Below, piece after piece: positions 2,196 through 13,486 of a stretch of 35,223 nucleotides of DNA (positions are counted from its first letter, which is position 1; each line of letters starts with the position of its first letter). This DNA is from an uncultured delta proteobacterium (GTDB lineage Bacteria; Myxococcota_A; Polyangia; Polyangiales; JADJMO01). The notes below the pieces were generated by a model. It did not search any database and was not told the DNA's origin. It was given only the letters and a program-made list of their open reading frames with translations. Position numbers and translations under genes: made by a program. The DNA lies in NCBI GenBank assembly GCA_903923175.1, contig CAIXWQ010000725.1, positions 1 to 35,223 on the forward strand. Reading direction: 5' to 3'.

Positions 2196-5100
2196 ATGAG
2201 CGAGAACGACGGCGAAGCCACGACCGCCAAGTTGGTTCGCGAACTCGAACAGCTTCGGGCGGAGAACGCCGAGCTGAAGCGGGCACGGCCCGCCGACCTG
2301 GCGACGAAAGACCAGCACCGCCTCATTCTCGAGGCCGCCTCCGACCTCGTATTCTCGCTGACGCAAGACGGTCGATACACCGACGCCAACCAAGCTCTCG
2401 CCGAGGCGTTCGGCAACGCGAGTGACGGCACCGTCCGGGAGGTCGTCCGCACCTTCGCAGACATCACCGAGTGGAAGCGGGCCGAGGAAGCTCGTCATCG
2501 GTCTGAGCTTGCCCTGAAGGCTAGTCAGCGGGTTGCCCACCTCGGAAGCTGGACCTGGTACATAAAGACGAACCTCCTCGAGTGGTCCGACGAGATGTTC
2601 CGCCTGTTCGGGATCGAGCCCCAGGGCTTCACGGGGGATCTCGCTGCCGTCGTCGACGCAGCCATCCATCCCGACGACCGAGAAGCCGTAGACCGCTCCA
2701 ACCGAGCGGTCGCCGAGGAGGGCAAGCCCGCGCCCCTCGAATACCGCGTCGTCTGGCCCGACGGCACCGTTCGCACGGTGTGGGCCGAAGCGGGTGAGCT
2801 GGTACGCGACGCAGAGGGGCGACCCTCGGTGTTGACCGGAATCGTGCAGGACATCACCGAGCGCAAGCGGGCCGAGAAGGCGCTGCGGGAGAGCGACGAG
2901 CGGACACGCACCCTCGTCGAGTGGATGCCCGATGCGACCGTCGTACATCGTGCGGGAAGGATTCTCTTCGTCAACCCCGCCGCCGTCAGGCTCTTTGGCG
3001 GCCAGTCCGATAGTGACTTGATCGGCAGGCCGGTCTTGGACCTGGTGGACCAAGAGTTTCGTGACGTCGTATTGGCGCGAATGGCAGCGACGATCGACAC
3101 CGGCCGACCATCCCCGGCTTTGGAACAGCGGCATCTCCGCCTGGACGGGACCGCACTCAGCGTCGAAGTCCAGGGCACTGCCATCCCCTATGACGGCGAA
3201 ACTGCGTTTCTCGCCATCGTTCACGACATCACCGACCGCAAGCGGGCCGAGGCCGCACACCGCGAGAGCGAGGAGCGCTACCGAACGATCGTCGAGAACA
3301 TCCCCGATGCGCTCATCGTCCATGACTTCGACGGCAACATCCTCGACGCGAACGATCGCGCCTGCGAACTCTACGGCTACGAACGCGACACTCTTGTCGG
3401 ACAGAACTTGCGCGTGATCTCTGTTCCCGAGCGCATGGAGCTCGAGACGTACCTGATGGACGTGCTGCGTGAGCGCCGAGAGGCTCGCTTCGAGGGGCTG
3501 TCGGTGCGCCGAGACGGGACCCGGTTTCCGACAGACGTGGTTGCCCGATTGGTTTCGATCGCGGGTCGTGGAATCGTGCATGGCTTCGTTCGCGACGTCA
3601 CCGACCGCAAGCGGGCCGAGGATGCATTGAGCGAGTCGCAATGGATGCTCAACGCAGTGCTCGATACCATCCCCGCGCGTGTCTTCTGGAAGAACCGGGA
3701 GTGCAGGTTCCTCGGGTGCAACGCCCTGTTCGCCGCCGATGCGGGCCTCGAGTCGCCCGCCGAGATTGTCGGCATGGACGACCATCAGATGAGCTGGCGG
3801 GCCGAGGCCGAGGCGTTCCGCGCCGACGATCGCATGGTGATGGACACGGGGGAGTCGAAGATTGGCTACGAAGAGCCACAGAGCACAACCAATGGGACGC
3901 GCTGGCTCCACACCAGCAAGGTTCCGCTGAAAGGACCGGACGGTAGGATACTCGGCGTGCTCGGGACGTACGAGGACATCACCGACCGCAAGCGGGCCGA
4001 AGACGCCCTTCGCGAACTCACCACGCGCCTTCACCTTGCCACGGTCTCGGCGAAGGCCGGGGTCTGGGATTGGAACCTCCAGACGAACGAGATGGTCTGG
4101 GATGACCGAATGCTGGAACTCTACGGACTCGACCGCGGGACCTTCCCCGGAGGGATTGAAGCCTGGGAGCGCGGGCTTCACCCGGAGGATCGTTCCAGGG
4201 CCATCGAGGAGTGCCAGGCTGCTTTGCGCGGAGAACAGGACTTCGACGCTGAGTTCCGTGTCCGGCGCCCTGATGGCACCGTGGGTCATCTCAAGGCGAA
4301 CGGACTCGTGCTTCGTGATGGGGTCGGAAAGCCAGTCCGAATGATCGGCTTGAACACAGACATCACCGATCGGAAACACGCCGAGCAGGAGAGGACCATG
4401 CTCGAAGCGCAGCTTCAGCAGGCGCAGAAGATGGAGTCTGTCGGCCGCCTGGCGGGTGGCGTCGCCCACGACTTCAACAACATGCTCGGAGTGATCATCG
4501 GGCACACTGAGCTGGCGTTGGAGCAAGTGGAGCCGACGCAGGCGCTTCGCGAAGACCTCCGGGAGATTCAAGGTGCCGCGAGACGTTCCGCCGACCTCAC
4601 GCGGCAACTGCTCGCGTTCGCCCGCAAGCAGACCGTCATGCCGAAGGTGCTGGACCTGAACGACATTCTGGCCGGCATGTTGAAGATGCTGGAACGGCTC
4701 CTTGGCGAGAACGTGCGGCTCGAGTGGTCGCCCTCCCGGAGCCTGTGGCCGGTGAACGCGGACCCATCCCAGATCGATCAGATCCTAGCGAACCTCTGCG
4801 TCAATGCGCGAGACGCCATCGGCGACGTCGGCACGCTGACCATCGCAACGGCAAACGTCTCGGTCGACCCAGCCCAGTGTGCTGCACGGCCGGGGCTTCT
4901 TCCTGGCGACTACCTGCAACTCGTCGTTCGCGACGACGGGTGCGGAATGGATCGCGAGACGCTCTCCCACATCTTCGAGCCCTTCTTCACGACCAAAGGG
5001 GTCGGCAAGGGAACTGGGCTCGGCCTGGCTACGGTCTACGGGATCGTGAAGCAGAACCACGGCTTCATCGACGTCGAGAGTGCCGTCGGGCGCGGCACCG

Positions 5101-5561
5101 CGTTCACGATCCTCCTGCCGCGGCATTTGCCCGTGGCTGCGGTCGTCCCCGACGCCGCCTCGGCCCGAGACTCCCGTCCGGGGCACGAGACCATCTTGCT
5201 CGTCGAGGACGAGCCCGCAGTCCTCCGGCTGACGAAGCGACTGCTAGGTGGGTTGGGGTACACGGTGCTGACGGCCAGCACGCCAGCCGAGGCCATCCGA
5301 GTAGCGCAGGCTTACGGTTCCCAGATCGAACTTCTCGTGACCGACGTGATCATGCCCGAGATGAACGGCAAGGATCTGGCGCGGAACCTCTCGTCCTCGT
5401 GCCCGCGCCTCCGCTACCTGTTCATGTCCGGCTACACGGCTGACGTCATCGCCCCCAAAGGGGTCGTCGAAGAGGGGACGAACTTCATTCAGAAGCCGTT
5501 CACCAAGGAGGCGCTGGCCGCCAAGGTGAGGGAGGCCCTGGAGCAAGAGCCGGATTGCTGA
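2196..5561 (+). CDS. Six-PAS hybrid sensor histidine kinase with receiver domain
   Basis: The product is 1121 aa from ATG 2196, chosen because a coiled coil (LVRELEQLRAENAELK) follows at once; the frame is open further upstream. Approximate domain order: truncated PAS 42-92, PAS 113-219, 239-344, 362-469, 486-595 and 612-724, HisKA with phosphorylatable His758 in GGVAHDFNN, HATPase with DDGCGMD, PFFTTK and GTGLGLATVYG, then a receiver at 997-1117 with Asp1050 (TDVIMPEMNG), SGYT and KPF. It has no membrane segment, so it senses in the cytoplasm and should pass phosphate from His758 to Asp1050. It has no output domain; a partner His-phosphotransfer or response regulator must be elsewhere. The first PAS is about half length, and each PAS ends in the repeated linker DITxRKRAE. 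Third positions are less GC-saturated than in neighbouring genes, hinting at separate origin. Confidence 0.93.
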   Translation: MSENDGEATTAKLVRELEQLRAENAELKRARPADLATKDQHRLILEAASDLVFSLTQDGRYTDANQALAEAFGNASDGTVREVVRTFADITEWKRAEEARHRSELALKASQRVAHLGSWTWYIKTNLLEWSDEMFRLFGIEPQGFTGDLAAVVDAAIHPDDREAVDRSNRAVAEEGKPAPLEYRVVWPDGTVRTVWAEAGELVRDAEGRPSVLTGIVQDITERKRAEKALRESDERTRTLVEWMPDATVVHRAGRILFVNPAAVRLFGGQSDSDLIGRPVLDLVDQEFRDVVLARMAATIDTGRPSPALEQRHLRLDGTALSVEVQGTAIPYDGETAFLAIVHDITDRKRAEAAHRESEERYRTIVENIPDALIVHDFDGNILDANDRACELYGYERDTLVGQNLRVISVPERMELETYLMDVLRERREARFEGLSVRRDGTRFPTDVVARLVSIAGRGIVHGFVRDVTDRKRAEDALSESQWMLNAVLDTIPARVFWKNRECRFLGCNALFAADAGLESPAEIVGMDDHQMSWRAEAEAFRADDRMVMDTGESKIGYEEPQSTTNGTRWLHTSKVPLKGPDGRILGVLGTYEDITDRKRAEDALRELTTRLHLATVSAKAGVWDWNLQTNEMVWDDRMLELYGLDRGTFPGGIEAWERGLHPEDRSRAIEECQAALRGEQDFDAEFRVRRPDGTVGHLKANGLVLRDGVGKPVRMIGLNTDITDRKHAEQERTMLEAQLQQAQKMESVGRLAGGVAHDFNNMLGVIIGHTELALEQVEPTQALREDLREIQGAARRSADLTRQLLAFARKQTVMPKVLDLNDILAGMLKMLERLLGENVRLEWSPSRSLWPVNADPSQIDQILANLCVNARDAIGDVGTLTIATANVSVDPAQCAARPGLLPGDYLQLVVRDDGCGMDRETLSHIFEPFFTTKGVGKGTGLGLATVYGIVKQNHGFIDVESAVGRGTAFTILLPRHLPVAAVVPDAASARDSRPGHETILLVEDEPAVLRLTKRLLGGLGYTVLTASTPAEAIRVAQAYGSQIELLVTDVIMPEMNGKDLARNLSSSCPRLRYLFMSGYTADVIAPKGVVEEGTNFIQKPFTKEALAAKVREALEQEPDC
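2461..4390 (+). repeat. Six dispersed copies of the PAS-linker sequence
   Basis: The linker after each PAS domain is nearly identical in DNA: GACATCACCGAnnGCAAGCG followed by GGCCGAG. Copies start near 2461, 2851, 3226, 3595, 3975 and 4360, the last being the most diverged. Protein conservation (DITDRKRAE) explains part of this, but the shared codons suggest duplication of PAS units inside the gene. These repeats could mediate loss or gain of whole PAS units by recombination. Confidence 0.7.
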
Positions 5562-6952: not shown

Positions 6953-6992
6953 CGAGGGATCAAAACCTCGGCCCCGCACCATTCCTGGAGTC
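6953..6992 (+). promoter_or_regulatory. Two-box promoter-like motif, copy A (sigma operon)
   Basis: CGAGGGATCAAA (6953-6964), eleven bases, GCACCATTCC (6976-6985), two bases, GAGTC (6988-6992). The same boxes with identical spacing occur at 8968-9007 before the neighbouring lipoprotein gene, while the spacers differ. Two conserved boxes at fixed distance upstream of an ECF sigma gene suggest the promoter recognised by that sigma factor (autoregulation). Which bases are -35 and -10 cannot be told by eye. Confidence 0.6.
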
Positions 6993-7009: not shown

Positions 7010-7201
7010 ATGCAACCACCCCGACTTCGACCGTGCGCGTGCCGGCTCTACGAGCACGGAGGGCACGGGCCCGCGTTTCTCCCGAGCGTGTGCGCAAGGC
7101 GGACGGTCGCCTGCGACGAGCTGCCCGATCGCGAGGACGCACCGCTCGCCGGCGACGAGGGCGCGCGGGACGACGGCGAGGCGCCGCGCGAGAAAAGGTA
7201 G
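7010..7201 (+). CDS. Possible 63-aa Cys/His-containing leader protein
   Basis: ATG 7010 lies 17 bases after the promoter-like motif and opens a 63-aa frame ending at TAG 7201, 24 bases before the sigma factor ATG. It has four Cys and two His in its first 40 residues (PCACRLYEHGGHG, SVCARRTVACDE) and an acidic tail, which could bind a metal. Upstream in-frame GTG 6863 is less likely. The opposite strand is also open and GC3 bias is ambiguous, so this may instead be the 5' leader of the sigma mRNA. Confidence 0.33.
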   Translation: MQPPRLRPCACRLYEHGGHGPAFLPSVCARRTVACDELPDREDAPLAGDEGARDDGEAPREKR

Positions 7202-7225: not shown

Positions 7226-7792
7226 ATGCGCGCCGCCTCGATGCCGCCGCCCCTGGAGTCGAACGTACGTGCAGCTCCGGATCGCCTGCGGCGCTTCGTG
7301 GACGCGCGCTACGACCAGCTCTGGCGCGTGGTGCGGAGGCTCGGCATCGCCGAGGACCGCGTGGAAGACGTCGTGCAGGAGGTGCTGATCGTCGTGTCGC
7401 GCAGGCTCGGCGACATCCCGGACGGCTCGGAGTGGCCCTTCGCCTTCGGCACGGCGCGCCGCCTCGCCTCCGACGCTCGACGGCGCGCGCGGCGCGCCCC
7501 GGCGCTCGAGTCGGTCGACGCGACGCACGAGCTCGTCGATCCGAAGACCACCGAGGGCAGCGCGCCGCACGACGATCGAAGGCTCCTCGATCGGCTCCTC
7601 GATCGGCTGTCGGAAGACCATCGCGAGGTCATCGTCCTGGTCGAGCTCGAAGGGCTGACGATGGCGGAGGCCGGCTCGCTGCTCGCCGTGCCGATGGGGA
7701 CGATCGCCTCGCGCCTTCGACGCGCGAAGGCACGCCTGGAGGAGCTGGCCGCGGAGCTGCTGGCGCCGCAGCCGCAAGGAACGAACCCATGA
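7226..7792 (+). CDS. ECF-family RNA polymerase sigma factor
   Basis: The product is 188 aa. Region 2 lies at about 22-90 (RFVDARYDQLWRVVRRLG, then EDVVQEVLIVVSRRL). Region 4 lies at about 125-176 (LSEDHREVIVLVELEGLTMA, GTIASRLRRAKARLEELAAE), with the normal helix-turn-helix. Sigma regions 1 and 3 are absent, as in the ECF group. The stop overlaps the next ATG in ATGA (7789-7792), so the two genes are translated together. The start is uncertain: ATG 7226 or 7241, neither with a good Shine-Dalgarno. It should direct RNA polymerase to the two-box promoters at 6953 and 8968. Confidence 0.92.
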   Translation: MRAASMPPPLESNVRAAPDRLRRFVDARYDQLWRVVRRLGIAEDRVEDVVQEVLIVVSRRLGDIPDGSEWPFAFGTARRLASDARRRARRAPALESVDATHELVDPKTTEGSAPHDDRRLLDRLLDRLSEDHREVIVLVELEGLTMAEAGSLLAVPMGTIASRLRRAKARLEELAAELLAPQPQGTNP

Positions 7793-8817
7793 GCGACGAA
7801 CGAGACCTCCTCGCGCGCGCGCTGCGATCGGCGGAGGCGGACGCGCCGCCGATCGGGGCGAAGGAGCGAGCCCTGGCGCGCCTCGAGGGCGATCGTCGCG
7901 ACTTCGCGCGCGCACAGGGCGCGCTGGGGAGCGTGCCTCGCGCGCGCTCGCGTTCGGCGCGTCCGATCGCGATCGCGTCGATGCTCGCCTTCGCGGCGGG
8001 CGCGGTGTTCGTACTGATCGTCCGCGGGCGGTGGCTCGCCCAGCCTCGCCCCGAGATCGCCGCGGTGTCGGACTCCGACGCGCGCGGCGGCGTGGCGAGC
8101 CCCTCGAACTCCGCCGGCGCCTCGCGCGCGGTGCCCTCGGAGGCCACGAGCGGCGCGGCTCCGCTCCCCGCCCCGGACGCGAGCGCGCCCGCGACGCCGA
8201 GCGCATCGGCGCGCGCGCTCCGACACTGCGCCGGGCTGACGCGCCCCGAGTCGCCGCCGCGCAGCTGCGCGGTCCCTGGCGACCCCTTGCTCCTCGAGCT
8301 GGTGAACGACTGCGACGAGCCGCTCGAGCTGTTCTGGGTGAACGCGGAGTGTCGCGAGGTCTCGTACGGAACGCTCCTTCCCGGCGCGCACCGGTTCCAG
8401 GGGACCGTCGCGACGCATCCGTGGAGACTGCGAAGTCGGCAGAGCGGGGCGCTGGTGCGCGACGTCGAGCCCACGGGCACGCCCACCCTCGCGCCGACGC
8501 CGCGCGCAATCACGTTCACGGCGACGGACGCCGATCCGGCGCCGACGGACGCGCCGCCGACCACGTGCTCGGAGGTCGGGCACACCGTCGATCTGACCGT
8601 GACGAACGGGCGCTCGTCGGCGGTGGAGCTCGTCTTCGTCGACTACGACTGCAAGGAGGTGCCGAAGCGGCAGCTCGCGCCGGGGGAGTCGTGGCGCAAG
8701 AAAGAGTCCGACGGTCACCGCTGGCGGATGCGCGACGTCGCGACGAAGCGGCTCGTGCGCGAGCTGCAGGTGGAGGGCGCGGCGGCCGGGCGACGGCTCC
8801 GGATCGTGGTGCCCTGA
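7789..8817 (+). CDS. Membrane protein with two VHL-beta-like repeats, candidate anti-sigma factor
   Basis: The product is 342 aa, start fixed by the ATGA overlap with the sigma gene. The cytoplasmic N-terminus (about 1-58) is charged, with one membrane helix at about 60-82 (AIASMLAFAAGAVFVLIV), a Ser/Ala/Pro-rich linker to about 145, then two related beta domains. Domain one (about 167-226) has LELFWVNAECREV, LLPGAHRF and THPWRLR. Domain two (about 265-334) has VELVFVDYDCKEV, LAPGESW and GHRWRMRD. The pattern of Trp/Phe strand, Leu-x-Pro-Gly turn and His-Pro-Trp matches the von Hippel-Lindau beta fold. Gene position, coupling and topology suggest a transmembrane anti-sigma factor whose VHL-like domains sense something outside the membrane. 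The HxxxCxxC zinc anti-sigma motif is absent, so the role is inferred. Confidence 0.8.
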   Translation: MSDERDLLARALRSAEADAPPIGAKERALARLEGDRRDFARAQGALGSVPRARSRSARPIAIASMLAFAAGAVFVLIVRGRWLAQPRPEIAAVSDSDARGGVASPSNSAGASRAVPSEATSGAAPLPAPDASAPATPSASARALRHCAGLTRPESPPRSCAVPGDPLLLELVNDCDEPLELFWVNAECREVSYGTLLPGAHRFQGTVATHPWRLRSRQSGALVRDVEPTGTPTLAPTPRAITFTATDADPAPTDAPPTTCSEVGHTVDLTVTNGRSSAVELVFVDYDCKEVPKRQLAPGESWRKKESDGHRWRMRDVATKRLVRELQVEGAAAGRRLRIVVP

Positions 8818-8967: not shown

Positions 8968-9007
8968 CGAGGGATCAAACGGCGCTCGTCGCACCATTCC
9001 CAGAGTC
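8968..9007 (+). promoter_or_regulatory. Two-box promoter-like motif, copy B (lipoprotein gene)
   Basis: CGAGGGATCAAA (8968-8979), eleven bases, GCACCATTCC (8991-9000), two bases, GAGTC (9003-9007). Both boxes and spacings match copy A at 6953-6992 exactly although the spacers differ, as expected of a functional site. It lies 66 bases before the ATG of the lipoprotein gene, which would then belong to the same ECF regulon. Confidence 0.6.
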
Positions 9008-9073: not shown

Positions 9074-9886
9074 ATGCGAACGGCGATGACGGCGATGACG
9101 GCGAAGACGGCGATGACGGCGCTGACGGCGACGGCGGCGGCGGCGGCGCTGCTGCTCGCAGCGGCTGGATGCGGTGCGACCCCGACGTCGCGAGCGTTCG
9201 CCTCGGGGGGCGACGACGGCGCCGTCTCCGAGGTCGATCCCGACGCCGCGCCTCCGAGCGTGGACCGCGTCTCGGTGATCGGCACCGTTCACGACGCCGT
9301 CACGACGAACACCGTCGCCGGCGCCACGATCTGCGTGTTCGAAGATCCGTCGCGGTGCACGACCTCCGCGGCCGACGGCACGTTCACGCTCGACGGGGTA
9401 CCTTCCGCCAGCTCGGGCGTCGTGGTCGACGCGTCGGGCTACGCGACCGGCCTTTGGGCGATGACCGCGAGCGCACCGCGCGTCGCCCTGGCGATTCGAC
9501 CGGCGGACCATGCGACCGCGTGGGCGCGAGCGTTGGGGACGACGTTCGATTCCACGTCGACGACGGGGGCGCTGGCCTTCTCGGTCGTCGACGGGGCGGG
9601 CGACCCTTTCGTGGGCGCGACCGTGACGACGACGCCTGCCGGCAGGATCGGGTTCTTCGCGGGCCCGGGCGGCGGCATCGATGGGACGCTGACGATGACG
9701 GCGTCGCCGGGCGGCGGGTGGGTCTACGATCTGCCCAGCGGCACGGTCGGCGTCGGCGTCACGGCTCCCGGCAAGACGTGCACGCGTCTGTCCGTGTTCG
9801 GCTGGGCGCCCACGGCCGCCGGCGAGACGCTCGCGGCGCCGGTGCGGGCCGGCGAGGTCTCGATCGTCCGCGTCGCGTGCGAGTGA
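9074..9886 (+). CDS. Lipoprotein with carboxypeptidase-regulatory-like beta domain
   Basis: The product is 270 aa. GGAGG (9063-9067) is well spaced from ATG 9074. The signal peptide is unusual: five Thr-Ala-x units, then an Ala/Leu core and lipobox AAAGC. The mature part has a segment at about 67-110 resembling the CarboxypepD_reg-like fold (GTVHDAVTTNTVAGATICVF, then ADGTFTLDGVPS), followed by a second beta-rich half with similar phrasing (FSVVDGAGDPFVGATVT). It is probably membrane-anchored, facing the periplasm or cell surface. Promoter copy B links it to the adjacent ECF sigma factor, so it may be the envelope component of that stress or signal response. The binding partner is unknown. 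Confidence 0.85.
   Translation: MRTAMTAMTAKTAMTALTATAAAAALLLAAAGCGATPTSRAFASGGDDGAVSEVDPDAAPPSVDRVSVIGTVHDAVTTNTVAGATICVFEDPSRCTTSAADGTFTLDGVPSASSGVVVDASGYATGLWAMTASAPRVALAIRPADHATAWARALGTTFDSTSTTGALAFSVVDGAGDPFVGATVTTTPAGRIGFFAGPGGGIDGTLTMTASPGGGWVYDLPSGTVGVGVTAPGKTCTRLSVFGWAPTAAGETLAAPVRAGEVSIVRVACE
9083..9136 (+). repeat. 9-bp tandem repeat coding the signal peptide
   Basis: Six units of consensus GCGATGACG run in frame from 9083 to 9136: two perfect, then GCGAAGACG, a perfect one, GCGCTGACG and GCGACGGCG. They encode the Thr-Ala-Met/Lys/Leu run at the start of the signal peptide. Slippage would change its length by three residues at a time without breaking the frame. Confidence 0.85.
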
Positions 9887-9940: not shown

Positions 9941-12900
9941 TCACCGCGCGACGCGCGCGATGCGGAAGTCGCCGAAGATCTCGCGTCGCGCGACGAACGG
10001 CGTCTGCTGTCCTTCGCTCGCCATCGTGACCCGCTGCGTGACCGCGTCGAAGAGCTCCGAGAGCTGCACCTGGCCGTCCTGGTTCGAGTCGGTCTCCTTG
10101 CTCGTCAGCGCGCCGAGCAGCGCGCCGGTGAAGAAGCCGTGCTCGCCCGTGGTCGTGACCGGCCTCGGCGCCGCGGCGCCGACGCGCAGCCCCCGCGTGG
10201 CGTTCCCTTCGAAGCTCACCTGGCGCCCCTTCGAGGCGGCGAAGACGACGATCCCGGCGCGTCCGCCCGCGCCGAGCGAGCGCGCGAGCGCCTCGTTCGC
10301 CACCACGGCCTCGCGCGTGATGTCGCCCGAGTGACACGCGTCGAGCAGCACGACCACGCGACCGCGCAGCTTCTCGAGCAGCCCGCTCAAGGCGGTCCAC
10401 GCGATGGCGTCGTGCACCGCGCCGCCGGAGATCGACGACTCGGAGGAAAGGAACGACATCTCGCCCGCCGGCCCGGACTGCACGCCGTGCCCGGCCAGGA
10501 AGACGATGGCGAGATCCTCGGGCTTCATCGCCTGCATGTCGGTCAGCGCCTGCTCGATGGACGCGCGGGTCACCTCGCCGTCGGTGAGCGTCTTCACGTG
10601 CGCCTTGGCGAACGTGCCGGCCGACACCTGCGCCGACATGGCGGCGCCGATGGCGAGCGCGTCGGCGTCGGCGACGCGCAGCTGCTGGGCGGCGCCCAGC
10701 TTCGGGTACTGGCTCACGCCGGCCGCGAGCACCCAGACGTCGGGGAGGGTGGCGACGGAGCTGTCGACCACGTCGAAGACGCGGGCGTTGCCGGCGAACC
10801 CGGACGCGTCGAAGGGCTGGAGCGTCACGCGGTTCAGCCCCGAAACGAGCGGCACGTCGAGGTCGAGCTCGCCTCGGGCCGCGCACACCGCCTTGTCCGC
10901 GACTTCGCGCCCCTCCACCCAGACGCGCACGCGATCGACGCGCACCGGCGCCGAGACCACCGCGTGCAGGTGCGCGCTGCCCGCTGCCGGCTGCGTGACG
11001 TCGAGCGCGTCGATCTTCGGCGGCCGGTGCGTCCACGCCGCGGCGTCGACATCCTCTCCCTTCAGGCGCTTCTCCACCGTCGCCGGCAGGGAGAATCGCG
11101 CCTCGAACTGCCCGAACCCGAAGCGCTCGGTCGGATCCACGAAGACCCAGCCGATGCGCTCGGCGACCTCGCGCGTGCCGACGTAGGCGCCGCCGGGCGT
11201 GAACGCGACCTGCTCGTCGTCGGAGAAGTCCACGAGGGTCACCCGCGGCGAGAGATCCTTCTCGCGCCAGAGCCGGAGCGCGCCGTTGCGCCCGATGCTT
11301 GCCAGCAGCCCGGCGCTCGCGTGCGGCGTGATCCACTCGATCGTGCCGCCGTCGCCCGTCGCGCTCGCGTCGATCGCGCCTTCGCGGACACGCTGGAGCG
11401 AGCCGTCGAGCCCGCCGACCACGACCACGCCGGGCTGCGGCGAGGTGAGGCTGCGCGGCGAGGAAGGGAGCGTCAGCTGCCACTTCTTGCCGCCACCTCG
11501 CACCTCGAACGCCGCGAGCTCGTCGCCGTAGCCGACGTAGACGACGTCGTCGTCGCCGACCGTCGCCGTGAATGCGCCCGACATCTTCGACGTCGTCGTG
11601 AGGCCCCCCGACTCGGACTTGAGCACCACCGGGACCGAGTACGTTCCAGCGAGCTTCCCGGTCGCGGCTTCCCACACGGCGGCGCGGCCGAAGAGGCCGA
11701 ACCCGATGGTGGTGCCGGACACCCACTTCCCGTTCGACGAGAGCTTGGCCGTGAAGACTTTGTTCGCGTCGTAGTCGGCGAGGGCGGTGCGCGCGCCGGT
11801 CTTCACGTCGACGAGCGACGTCCCTTCGGAGTCCGAGACCGCGAGCACGCCGCGCTCGAAATCGACGTCGTCGAGCCGCTGCGCCTTCGCGAGGCACAGG
11901 TGCTTGGCCGCACCCCTCGGCGCGGGCCACGTCATCTTGGCGCGCTCTCGCTCCCGCGCGGCCGGATCGGGCTTGGCCGTCGGCGCGTTCGTCGGCTTGG
12001 CGGCGGTCGCGGAGCCGTCGAGGAGCATCGGCGGCGGCCGGTCGTCGTCCGCGGCGTCGGGGTCGCTCCCGGCCGGCGCGTCGAGGCCGTGCCAGCGCTC
12101 GATCGCGACCTCGAGCTCGTCGAACCGGCACGACGGGCGGAGCTCGCCGCTCGACGAGCCCCACGTCCTCGCGACCATCACGTCGCCGTGGTCCAGGCTC
12201 GCGAACGCGACCTGCGAGACGCGCTGGCGGCGCGCGACGGTGCCGGCGGGCAACGACCACTCCGCGAAGCGGCCCGCCTCGAGGGCGACGAGCGATCCGA
12301 GCGCGCCGCTCGACGACGGGACGAGGCCGACCCATCGGACCCCCATCGTCGGCGCGCCGAGCGCGGGCTCGCTGCGGCCGGTCTCGGCGCCGTACACGCG
12401 CAGCGCGCCGCCGTTCCCGCCGGTCACCACGCGCGCGCCGTCGCCCGAGAAGGTCACGCGCTTGTGCATCTCCTCGAGGTTGATGTTGGTGGACCTGCGC
12501 CAGGCGAGCGCCCGCTTGGCGACGCTCCAGACGACGACGTCGCTGGAGGTGGCCGCCGCCACGCGCTTGCCGTCGGGCGACAGCGCCACCCCTTGCGGAT
12601 GGTCGACGACGCCATCCAGCGCCTGGAGCGCCGTGGCGCCGTCGGTCGGGCCGATCCACACGCGCCCCGCGGGCACGCGCAGCGCGCCGCCGAACGAGGA
12701 CGGTCGACTCTCGCTCTTCGTGGCGACGACCGCGAGCTGCCGGCCGTCGACCGAGAGCGCGAGCGCCGCGATCTTCTCGGCGTCGATCGCGACGACGCGC
12801 GCCGGCGTGTCGGGCGCGCCGAGCGAGAAGATGGCCACCTGCTTCTCGCCCTCGGCGACCGCGAGCGTGGAGCCGTCGCGCGAGAGCGCGATCGCGGACG

Positions 12901-13486
12901 GGAAGTAGCTCCCTTTGACGCCGCTCGGCAGCGAGAACTTGCCGACCGCCTTCGCGTCGTCGCCCACCAGCACGGGGAGCCCGTCGCGCACGGAGAGCCA
13001 GCGTCGGGCGCCCGCCTGGGCGACCTCGGCGCGCGTCTCGCGCGGCAGCTTCTCGACGACGCGACCGGCGAGATCGATGGTGCGTGACGCCGCGGCCCCC
13101 AGGACGGTGAGCCGGCTCCCCTCGGCGTTCCACGCGAGCTCGCGGAAGCCGTCGAGGTCGGCGAGCGGGATCGTCCGCAACAGCGCGTGCTGCGCGACGT
13201 CCCACAGGCGGACCGTGCCGTCGCTCGACGCGGTCGCCAGGTAGCCACGAGGCGAGCTCGCCAGCGCGACGACCTCACCGGAGTGCCTGCTGTCGACCGT
13301 GAGGCTCGGCGCCTGCGCGAGGGCGGCCTCGGCGGGCGCGCTGCCCGGGCAGACCGAGGCGGTCGAGCTGGAGGGGGCGCCGGCGGGTGCGCTGGAGGGC
13401 GGCTTGGGCGAGGCGCCGCCGCAGGCGATCGCCAGGGCGAGGGGGAGGCCGAGGAGCGTGCCGAGTGGCAAGCGAGGGGTCCGCAT
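9941..13486 (-). CDS. Lipoprotein WD40-repeat caspase-like peptidase (C14) with EF-hand
   Basis: The product is 1181 aa. The signal peptide ends at a lipobox-like AIAC (Cys22). WD40-like repeats at about 65-440 include GYLATASSDGTVRLWDVA, LSPDGKRVAAATSSDVVVW and FSGDGARVVTGGNGGALRVY; more degenerate blades run to about 740. A caspase p20-like domain starts at about 920 (DVWVLAAGVSQYPKL). His1000 is in AGHGVQ and Cys1051 in LLDACHSGD, the complete catalytic dyad. A canonical EF-hand loop, DSNQDGQVQLSE, sits at 1133-1144 near the end, so calcium control is plausible. Prokaryotic caspases of this family cleave after basic or acidic residues; the substrate here is unknown. The lipid anchor puts it outside the cytoplasm, unlike most orthocaspases. 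The gene follows the PKD/FGE-like lipoprotein gene on the same strand. Confidence 0.9.
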   Translation of the reverse strand: MRTPRLPLGTLLGLPLALAIACGGASPKPPSSAPAGAPSSSTASVCPGSAPAEAALAQAPSLTVDSRHSGEVVALASSPRGYLATASSDGTVRLWDVAQHALLRTIPLADLDGFRELAWNAEGSRLTVLGAAASRTIDLAGRVVEKLPRETRAEVAQAGARRWLSVRDGLPVLVGDDAKAVGKFSLPSGVKGSYFPSAIALSRDGSTLAVAEGEKQVAIFSLGAPDTPARVVAIDAEKIAALALSVDGRQLAVVATKSESRPSSFGGALRVPAGRVWIGPTDGATALQALDGVVDHPQGVALSPDGKRVAAATSSDVVVWSVAKRALAWRRSTNINLEEMHKRVTFSGDGARVVTGGNGGALRVYGAETGRSEPALGAPTMGVRWVGLVPSSSGALGSLVALEAGRFAEWSLPAGTVARRQRVSQVAFASLDHGDVMVARTWGSSSGELRPSCRFDELEVAIERWHGLDAPAGSDPDAADDDRPPPMLLDGSATAAKPTNAPTAKPDPAARERERAKMTWPAPRGAAKHLCLAKAQRLDDVDFERGVLAVSDSEGTSLVDVKTGARTALADYDANKVFTAKLSSNGKWVSGTTIGFGLFGRAAVWEAATGKLAGTYSVPVVLKSESGGLTTTSKMSGAFTATVGDDDVVYVGYGDELAAFEVRGGGKKWQLTLPSSPRSLTSPQPGVVVVGGLDGSLQRVREGAIDASATGDGGTIEWITPHASAGLLASIGRNGALRLWREKDLSPRVTLVDFSDDEQVAFTPGGAYVGTREVAERIGWVFVDPTERFGFGQFEARFSLPATVEKRLKGEDVDAAAWTHRPPKIDALDVTQPAAGSAHLHAVVSAPVRVDRVRVWVEGREVADKAVCAARGELDLDVPLVSGLNRVTLQPFDASGFAGNARVFDVVDSSVATLPDVWVLAAGVSQYPKLGAAQQLRVADADALAIGAAMSAQVSAGTFAKAHVKTLTDGEVTRASIEQALTDMQAMKPEDLAIVFLAGHGVQSGPAGEMSFLSSESSISGGAVHDAIAWTALSGLLEKLRGRVVVLLDACHSGDITREAVVANEALARSLGAGGRAGIVVFAASKGRQVSFEGNATRGLRVGAAAPRPVTTTGEHGFFTGALLGALTSKETDSNQDGQVQLSELFDAVTQRVTMASEGQQTPFVARREIFGDFRIARVAR

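Follow-up and report, generated by a model that had tools for sequence, protein, structure and literature searches.

A gene for an ECF sigma factor, lying in a 35,223-nucleotide stretch of DNA from an uncultured delta proteobacterium related to the myxobacteria (contig CAIXWQ010000725.1; this whole stretch is called the window), is coupled to the gene of a single-pass membrane protein that carries two domains homologous to the beta domain of the von Hippel-Lindau protein (VHL). ECF factors with a membrane-bound regulator are known; what is new is the presence of VHL domains in the regulator's presumed sensor part. The sigma-VHL system is probably a sensor, and we hold it moderately likely that it is an ECF switch that regulates itself and that the partner, whose VHL domains would read an extracytoplasmic ligand, keeps at the membrane. 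Sensing and anti-sigma activity are here read from the architecture. A literature search found no report of bacterial VHL-sigma systems.

The sigma gene and its membrane partner

The sigma gene (7226-7792, + strand) encodes a 188-residue protein with matches to Sigma70_r2 (E = 4e-7) and Sigma70_r4_2 (E = 2e-12) in Pfam and to TIGR02937, sigma70-ECF, in NCBIfam; it has regions 2 and 4 only, as expected of an ECF (group IV) factor. Its stop codon forms a 4-bp ATGA-type overlap with the start of the partner gene (7789-8817, +), which encodes 342 residues and occupies the anti-sigma position, an assignment based on the translation, on the overlap and on an ortholog in another genome described below. 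The coordinates given to the pair by the first-pass annotation were correct. G+C around the pair is 74%. Between a predicted promoter and the sigma gene there is also a possible small ORF of 63 codons (7010-7201, +), with a perfect AGGAGG Shine-Dalgarno sequence, a Cys/His-rich start and codon-position GC values of 0.81/0.59/0.83; related sigma modules have no space for a counterpart.

The partner consists, in order, of an N-terminal segment, a membrane helix, a linker rich in Ala, Pro and Ser, and the two VHL repeats. The N-terminal segment (residues 1-58; 7789-7962, +) is predicted to be cytoplasmic. The single transmembrane helix (residues 60-78; 7966-8022, +) has a Kyte-Doolittle maximum of 2.67 over 19 residues and is immediately preceded by four Lys or Arg residues, and all six Cys of the protein are C-terminal of it. 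Hydropathy and charge thus support the earlier proposal of one membrane helix with the VHL domains placed, by prediction, outside the cytoplasm. The zinc anti-sigma (ZAS, class I) motif HxxxCxxC is absent because the first 59 residues contain neither Cys nor His, and the earlier description of a non-zinc protein in the anti-sigma position stands. Neither Pfam nor NCBIfam recognised an anti-sigma domain in the N-terminus, which at 58 residues is short relative to known anti-sigma domains. Against Pfam the partner yielded the VHL matches and one sub-threshold chance match only, with no FecR or RsgI N-terminal domain, and a phmmer comparison of the partner with the PDB gave a single match, spanning the membrane helix and linker, and nothing useful.

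The short N-terminus without a recognised anti-sigma domain would also suit a partner that acts as a co-activator, or as a membrane tether without which the sigma factor could not respond; the VHL domains would be sensory in that case too. Positive regulators do exist among ECF partners, in FecR-like systems. We nevertheless think a co-activator or tether rather unlikely: the partner has no FecR domain match in Pfam, and its translational coupling and position suit an inhibitor equally well and so do not separate the two roles.

Homology of the repeats to the VHL beta domain is clear at the profile level. The partner as a whole matches Pfam VHL (PF01847) in two stretches at 27.9 bits (cut-off 21; E = 2.4e-6), and repeats 1 and 2, scanned singly, score 15.6 and 18.1 bits, under the cut-off. 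Against a profile of 24 bacterial VHL domains, which has the window's two repeats among its rows, repeat 1 (8266-8493, +) gives E = 2e-24 and repeat 2 (8563-8787, +) E = 4e-24. That profile retrieves human VHL from the PDB at E of about 1e-12, the next sequences having E of at least 0.01, and a profile made from the six sigma-linked domains alone still ranks VHL at the top of the PDB (E = 7e-4). The partner's two repeats are the sole PF01847 matches in the whole 10.7 Mb genome, and the matches are therefore not due to chance. Thus the VHL-like repeats that had been noticed from the letters alone reflect true homology, and nothing at the sequence level pointed to an unrelated fold.

Nor are VHL domains confined to this protein. 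Of 183 genomes of the order searched with PF01847, 24 have VHL genes, and 14 control genomes have none; the 24-domain profile found VHL domains in 28 of the 183 and in 41 of 377 sampled genomes of the phylum. The host proteins, assigned to families by reading their sequences, include lipoproteins, HExxH peptidases, caspase-fold, zinc-ribbon and coiled-coil proteins and, in two planctomycete-labelled contigs, prolyl-oligopeptidase-like proteins. In these bacteria, then, the VHL beta domain, found in such varied proteins and in many genomes, is a module both widespread and mobile. In the prolyl-oligopeptidase-like proteins the VHL beta domains lie in the N-terminal region (L203, 2128-2343; L204, 5025-5243) and have a full WYTHW pocket, and another VHL beta domain ends a secreted caspase-fold protein (L061, G051:C110, 5153-6178). 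A scan of contigs with the window partner's sequence alone detected no relative, a tighter alignment detected seven loci, and two scans of viral contigs detected no relatives. An Hsp70-like match (L072) was rejected as false.

Recurrence of the pair and the partner's exchangeable outer end

The gene-neighbourhood survey proposed with the first reading found an orthologous or closely related ECF sigma gene next to a two-VHL protein in two further genomes. The best match to the sigma factor among 177 genomes of the order (G112:C71; 49% identity, E = 7e-43, the next match having E = 4e-35) is from Myxococcales bacterium nzgw255 (locus L198, JAHFDX010000007.1). There the sigma gene (559-1125) is followed, after a 5 bp gap, by the gene of a 329-residue protein that has an N-terminal segment, a membrane helix and two VHL domains and is 34% identical to the window's partner. 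Local G+C at this pair is 58%, and the genome has another family code. In the third-best sigma match, G137:C181, a 1 bp gap separates the sigma gene from that of a 336-residue protein whose two VHL domains have diverged further. Both the G112 and the G137 partner have counterparts of the window partner's six ectodomain Cys. In the sigma tree the window and G112 are sisters (support 100/98), and a clade of these two with G137 is neither shown nor rejected (p-AU 0.54).

By a six-frame neighbourhood search, sigma-VHL pairs occur in 3 of the 28 VHL-bearing genomes of the order, in which VHL genes are mostly not near any ECF gene. The pairing is thus conserved yet rare, and its distribution is patchy, since the remaining genomes with the window's genus or family code gave no pair. 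One further locus, in G320, was rejected as an instance of the same system: its ECF factor is of another kind and about 1.5 kb off, with a FecR-like ORF between. At that locus (L179, G320:C207, 739-3999, - strand) a single strand carries the ECF gene, the FecR-like ORF and, beyond them, the gene of a two-VHL membrane protein; it is possibly an independent VHL-ECF link in a distant relative.

Genes of other close sigma relatives are followed by genes for single-pass proteins of 210-280 residues, with an ATGA overlap in most, and in the three partners scanned from these related modules the outer part is TPR/YfiO-like. The N-termini of TPR-type partners have a common motif, approximately LLxSAxxDxPxxxAxxRxLAxLG. 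A score matrix built from TPR-type partners only found this motif at the start of all three VHL partners (shuffle p = 1.5e-4, 1.5e-4 and 6.5e-4), the window's segment, with LLxSAxxDxPxxxAxxRxLAxL, being above its shuffles at p = 1.5e-4. Because the N-terminal region is of low complexity, a full HMM of it could not tell the VHL partners apart from shuffled controls. As the motif is common to VHL-type and TPR-type partners, the cytoplasmic end of the partner appears to go with the sigma factor, and the outer end to be exchanged. Such a pattern would be expected of a sigma-binding segment joined to a swappable sensor, and the VHL pair looks like a swapped sensor that replaces a TPR-like ectodomain on a common chassis.

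The same comparison bears on the possibility that the partner is an envelope protein which the sigma factor simply targets, with no part in sigma control. The partner does lie in the same operon behind the signature promoter described below, and VHL proteins elsewhere are plain envelope proteins. However, its N-terminal motif and membrane layout are common with those of the TPR-type partners found at the same place, and conservation of the cytoplasmic part therefore follows the sigma factor rather than the ectodomain. A role for the partner as target only is hardly probable.

A promoter-like signature and a predicted target

A putative ECF promoter, GGGATCAA-N15-CCATT, lies upstream of the sigma gene (6956-6983, +), and a second exact match follows the pair, ahead of the gene downstream (8971-8998, +). 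Nowhere else in the 10.7 Mb genome does the exact pattern occur, and the reversed pattern, used as a control, has no match. The G112 genome has a single exact copy, which is 14 nt before the start of its sigma gene. The pattern was chosen after these three sites had been seen, the window's two by eye and the one in G112, and the fair test is therefore the whole sigma group. In that group the core GATC-N17-CCAT was found upstream of 14 of 30 sigma genes (12.6 kb), the window and G112 being within the 14; the remaining 55.9 kb of the same strand has 5 occurrences, including the window's second site, and the opposite strand (68.5 kb) has 2. Related KGATC-N17-NCAT sites precede 18 of the 30 genes, and in many relatives there are related TGATCAA sites some 100 nt ahead of the sigma domain's conserved start. 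Of 183 genomes of the order, 10 contain the exact pattern and none contains its reversed control.

Five relatives have a second site directly after the partner gene, and a lipoprotein-like ORF starts within about 40 nt of it. Since the sites recur before the sigma genes and, in these five, after the partner gene, the module in the order would consist of promoter, sigma factor and membrane partner and, in several cases, a further promoter and a lipoprotein. In these loci (L081, L083, L097, L099 and L101), where the second copy of the signature lies between the partner gene and the lipoprotein-like gene, a V-x-L-G stretch a short way past the lipobox Cys is common to several of the lipoproteins. 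The window's predicted target is a 270-residue lipoprotein (9074-9886, +) with a lipobox-like LLAAAGC and a CarboxypepD_reg-like domain (PF13620, E = 2e-9 on the longer ORF of the gene). The promoter-like signature links the sigma-partner pair to this putative target. The signature was absent upstream of the sigma gene in G137, and no second site was found near the G112 locus.

Two neighbouring genes are recorded here. Adjoining the predicted target gene, 9941-13486 (-) encodes a lipoprotein-like protein of 1181 residues that contains WD40 repeats and has a caspase domain (PF00656) at its C-terminal end, with a match under cut-off to the NCBIfam EACC1-associated caspase family. On the other side of the pair, 2196-5561 (+) encodes a large histidine kinase-like protein which, by eye, has many PAS-like repeats and a C-terminal receiver-like part.

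The VHL pocket, the proposed switch and known systems

Animal VHL is a reader of oxygen-dependent proline hydroxylation, and in complexes with HIF peptides human VHL holds hydroxyproline through W88, Y98, S111, H115 and W117. The full pocket (W, Y, S/T, H, W) is present in 44 of 80 different bacterial domains, and the W88, H115 and W117 positions are each kept in 73 of 81 domains, human VHL included. Repeat 1 has WYTHW both in the window and in G112; repeat 2 is FKEHW in the window and WKTHW in G112, with Lys at the Tyr98 position in each. The two G137 repeats have WRSHF and RPCHF. The pocket thus appears to be under constraint in the family at large and in repeat 1 of two of the three sigma-linked proteins. 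In animals, as the first-pass annotation noted, this fold reads hydroxyproline. That the window's domains do so is no more than a possibility: the window's repeat 1 keeps all five pocket residues, its repeat 2 keeps two of the five, and in G137 neither pocket is full.

A search for prolyl-4-hydroxylase-type enzymes with PF13640 gave no match in the window's own genome (95.6% complete) or in that of G112 (86%), and gave two in the G137 genome. Because both of the former genomes lack a match, a hydroxyproline signal made by the cell itself seems unlikely by the test of this one family. A foreign ligand rich in proline or hydroxyproline is possible. That a VHL-type pocket outside the membrane recognises a polypeptide bearing hydroxyproline or proline, and so directly controls transcription through an ECF sigma factor, we consider improbable; were it so, the ligand may be an envelope protein of the cell or a foreign one such as collagen or a plant or algal wall protein.

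Cys residues are also conserved. The Gly93 position is Cys in 45 of 81 domains, including all six sigma-linked ones; a further Cys, where the domain starts, goes with it, and such pairs would fit disulfides formed outside the cytoplasm. It may be that the VHL domains are structural only, serving envelope anchoring or protein contact, for example with the adjacent lipoprotein, and that the signal is mechanical or proteolytic and not a pocket ligand. Repeat 2 and both G137 repeats have degenerate pockets yet retain the Cys pairs and H115, VHL domains are joined to many unrelated proteins (lipoproteins, HExxH peptidases, a caspase-fold protein), and the predicted target is itself the adjacent lipoprotein. 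Against this, the full pocket of repeat 1 in the window and G112, as in the 44 bacterial domains, suggests constraint by a ligand, and we regard a purely structural role as somewhat unlikely, if worth keeping in view.

In the switch that we favour, the short cytoplasmic N-terminus of the single-pass partner would bind the sigma factor, hold it at the membrane and inhibit it. Outside the membrane, two VHL beta domains, presumably braced by disulfides and standing in for the TPR-like ectodomain carried by the same chassis in related modules, would bind a ligand, which is probably a stretch of polypeptide. The sigma factor would be set free by this binding, or by proteolysis of the stalk, and would then transcribe its own operon and the adjacent lipoprotein gene from the GGGATCAA-N15-CCATT promoters. 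Here VHL-homologous domains with the same pocket residues occupy, outside the membrane, the sensor position of a bacterial sigma switch. One may ask what such a pocket recognises in a bacterium, and the sigma factor, its partner and the two predicted promoters offer a compact reporter system for that question. A chassis with exchangeable TPR and VHL ectodomains and a common signature, moreover, gives a testable regulon for a large ECF group of the order.

The window's repeats are homologous by profile to the beta domain of human pVHL, and repeat 1 keeps the W88, Y98, S/T111, H115 and W117 positions. Unlike pVHL, the partner lacks the VHL alpha domain and any ubiquitin-ligase context, its domains are in tandem, predicted to be extracytoplasmic and have Cys at the Gly93 position, repeat 2 is without most of the pocket, and the genome has no PF13640 match. 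A VHL beta domain within a bacterial protein is described for Litorilituus EMK97_00595 (PMC9002001); in the accessible part of that paper this is a single protein identified by annotation servers, with no sigma linkage, tandem domains or pocket survey. The TPR-type modules of the same order (L075-L102) resemble the window's in sigma group, N-terminal motif, helix, linker and promoter-like signature, and differ in having a TPR/YfiO-like ectodomain where the window has two VHL domains. A broader parallel is the clostridial SigI/RsgI system, in which RsgI senses carbohydrates through binding modules and has an autocleaving periplasmic domain (PMC12203970). As in the window, a sigma gene is there paired with a single-pass partner that has a short cytoplasmic N-terminus, and exchangeable outer sensor domains sit on a common chassis; in contrast, the window partner has, by Pfam, neither the autocleaving domain nor the RsgI N-terminus, and SigI is not an ECF factor of the window sigma's group.
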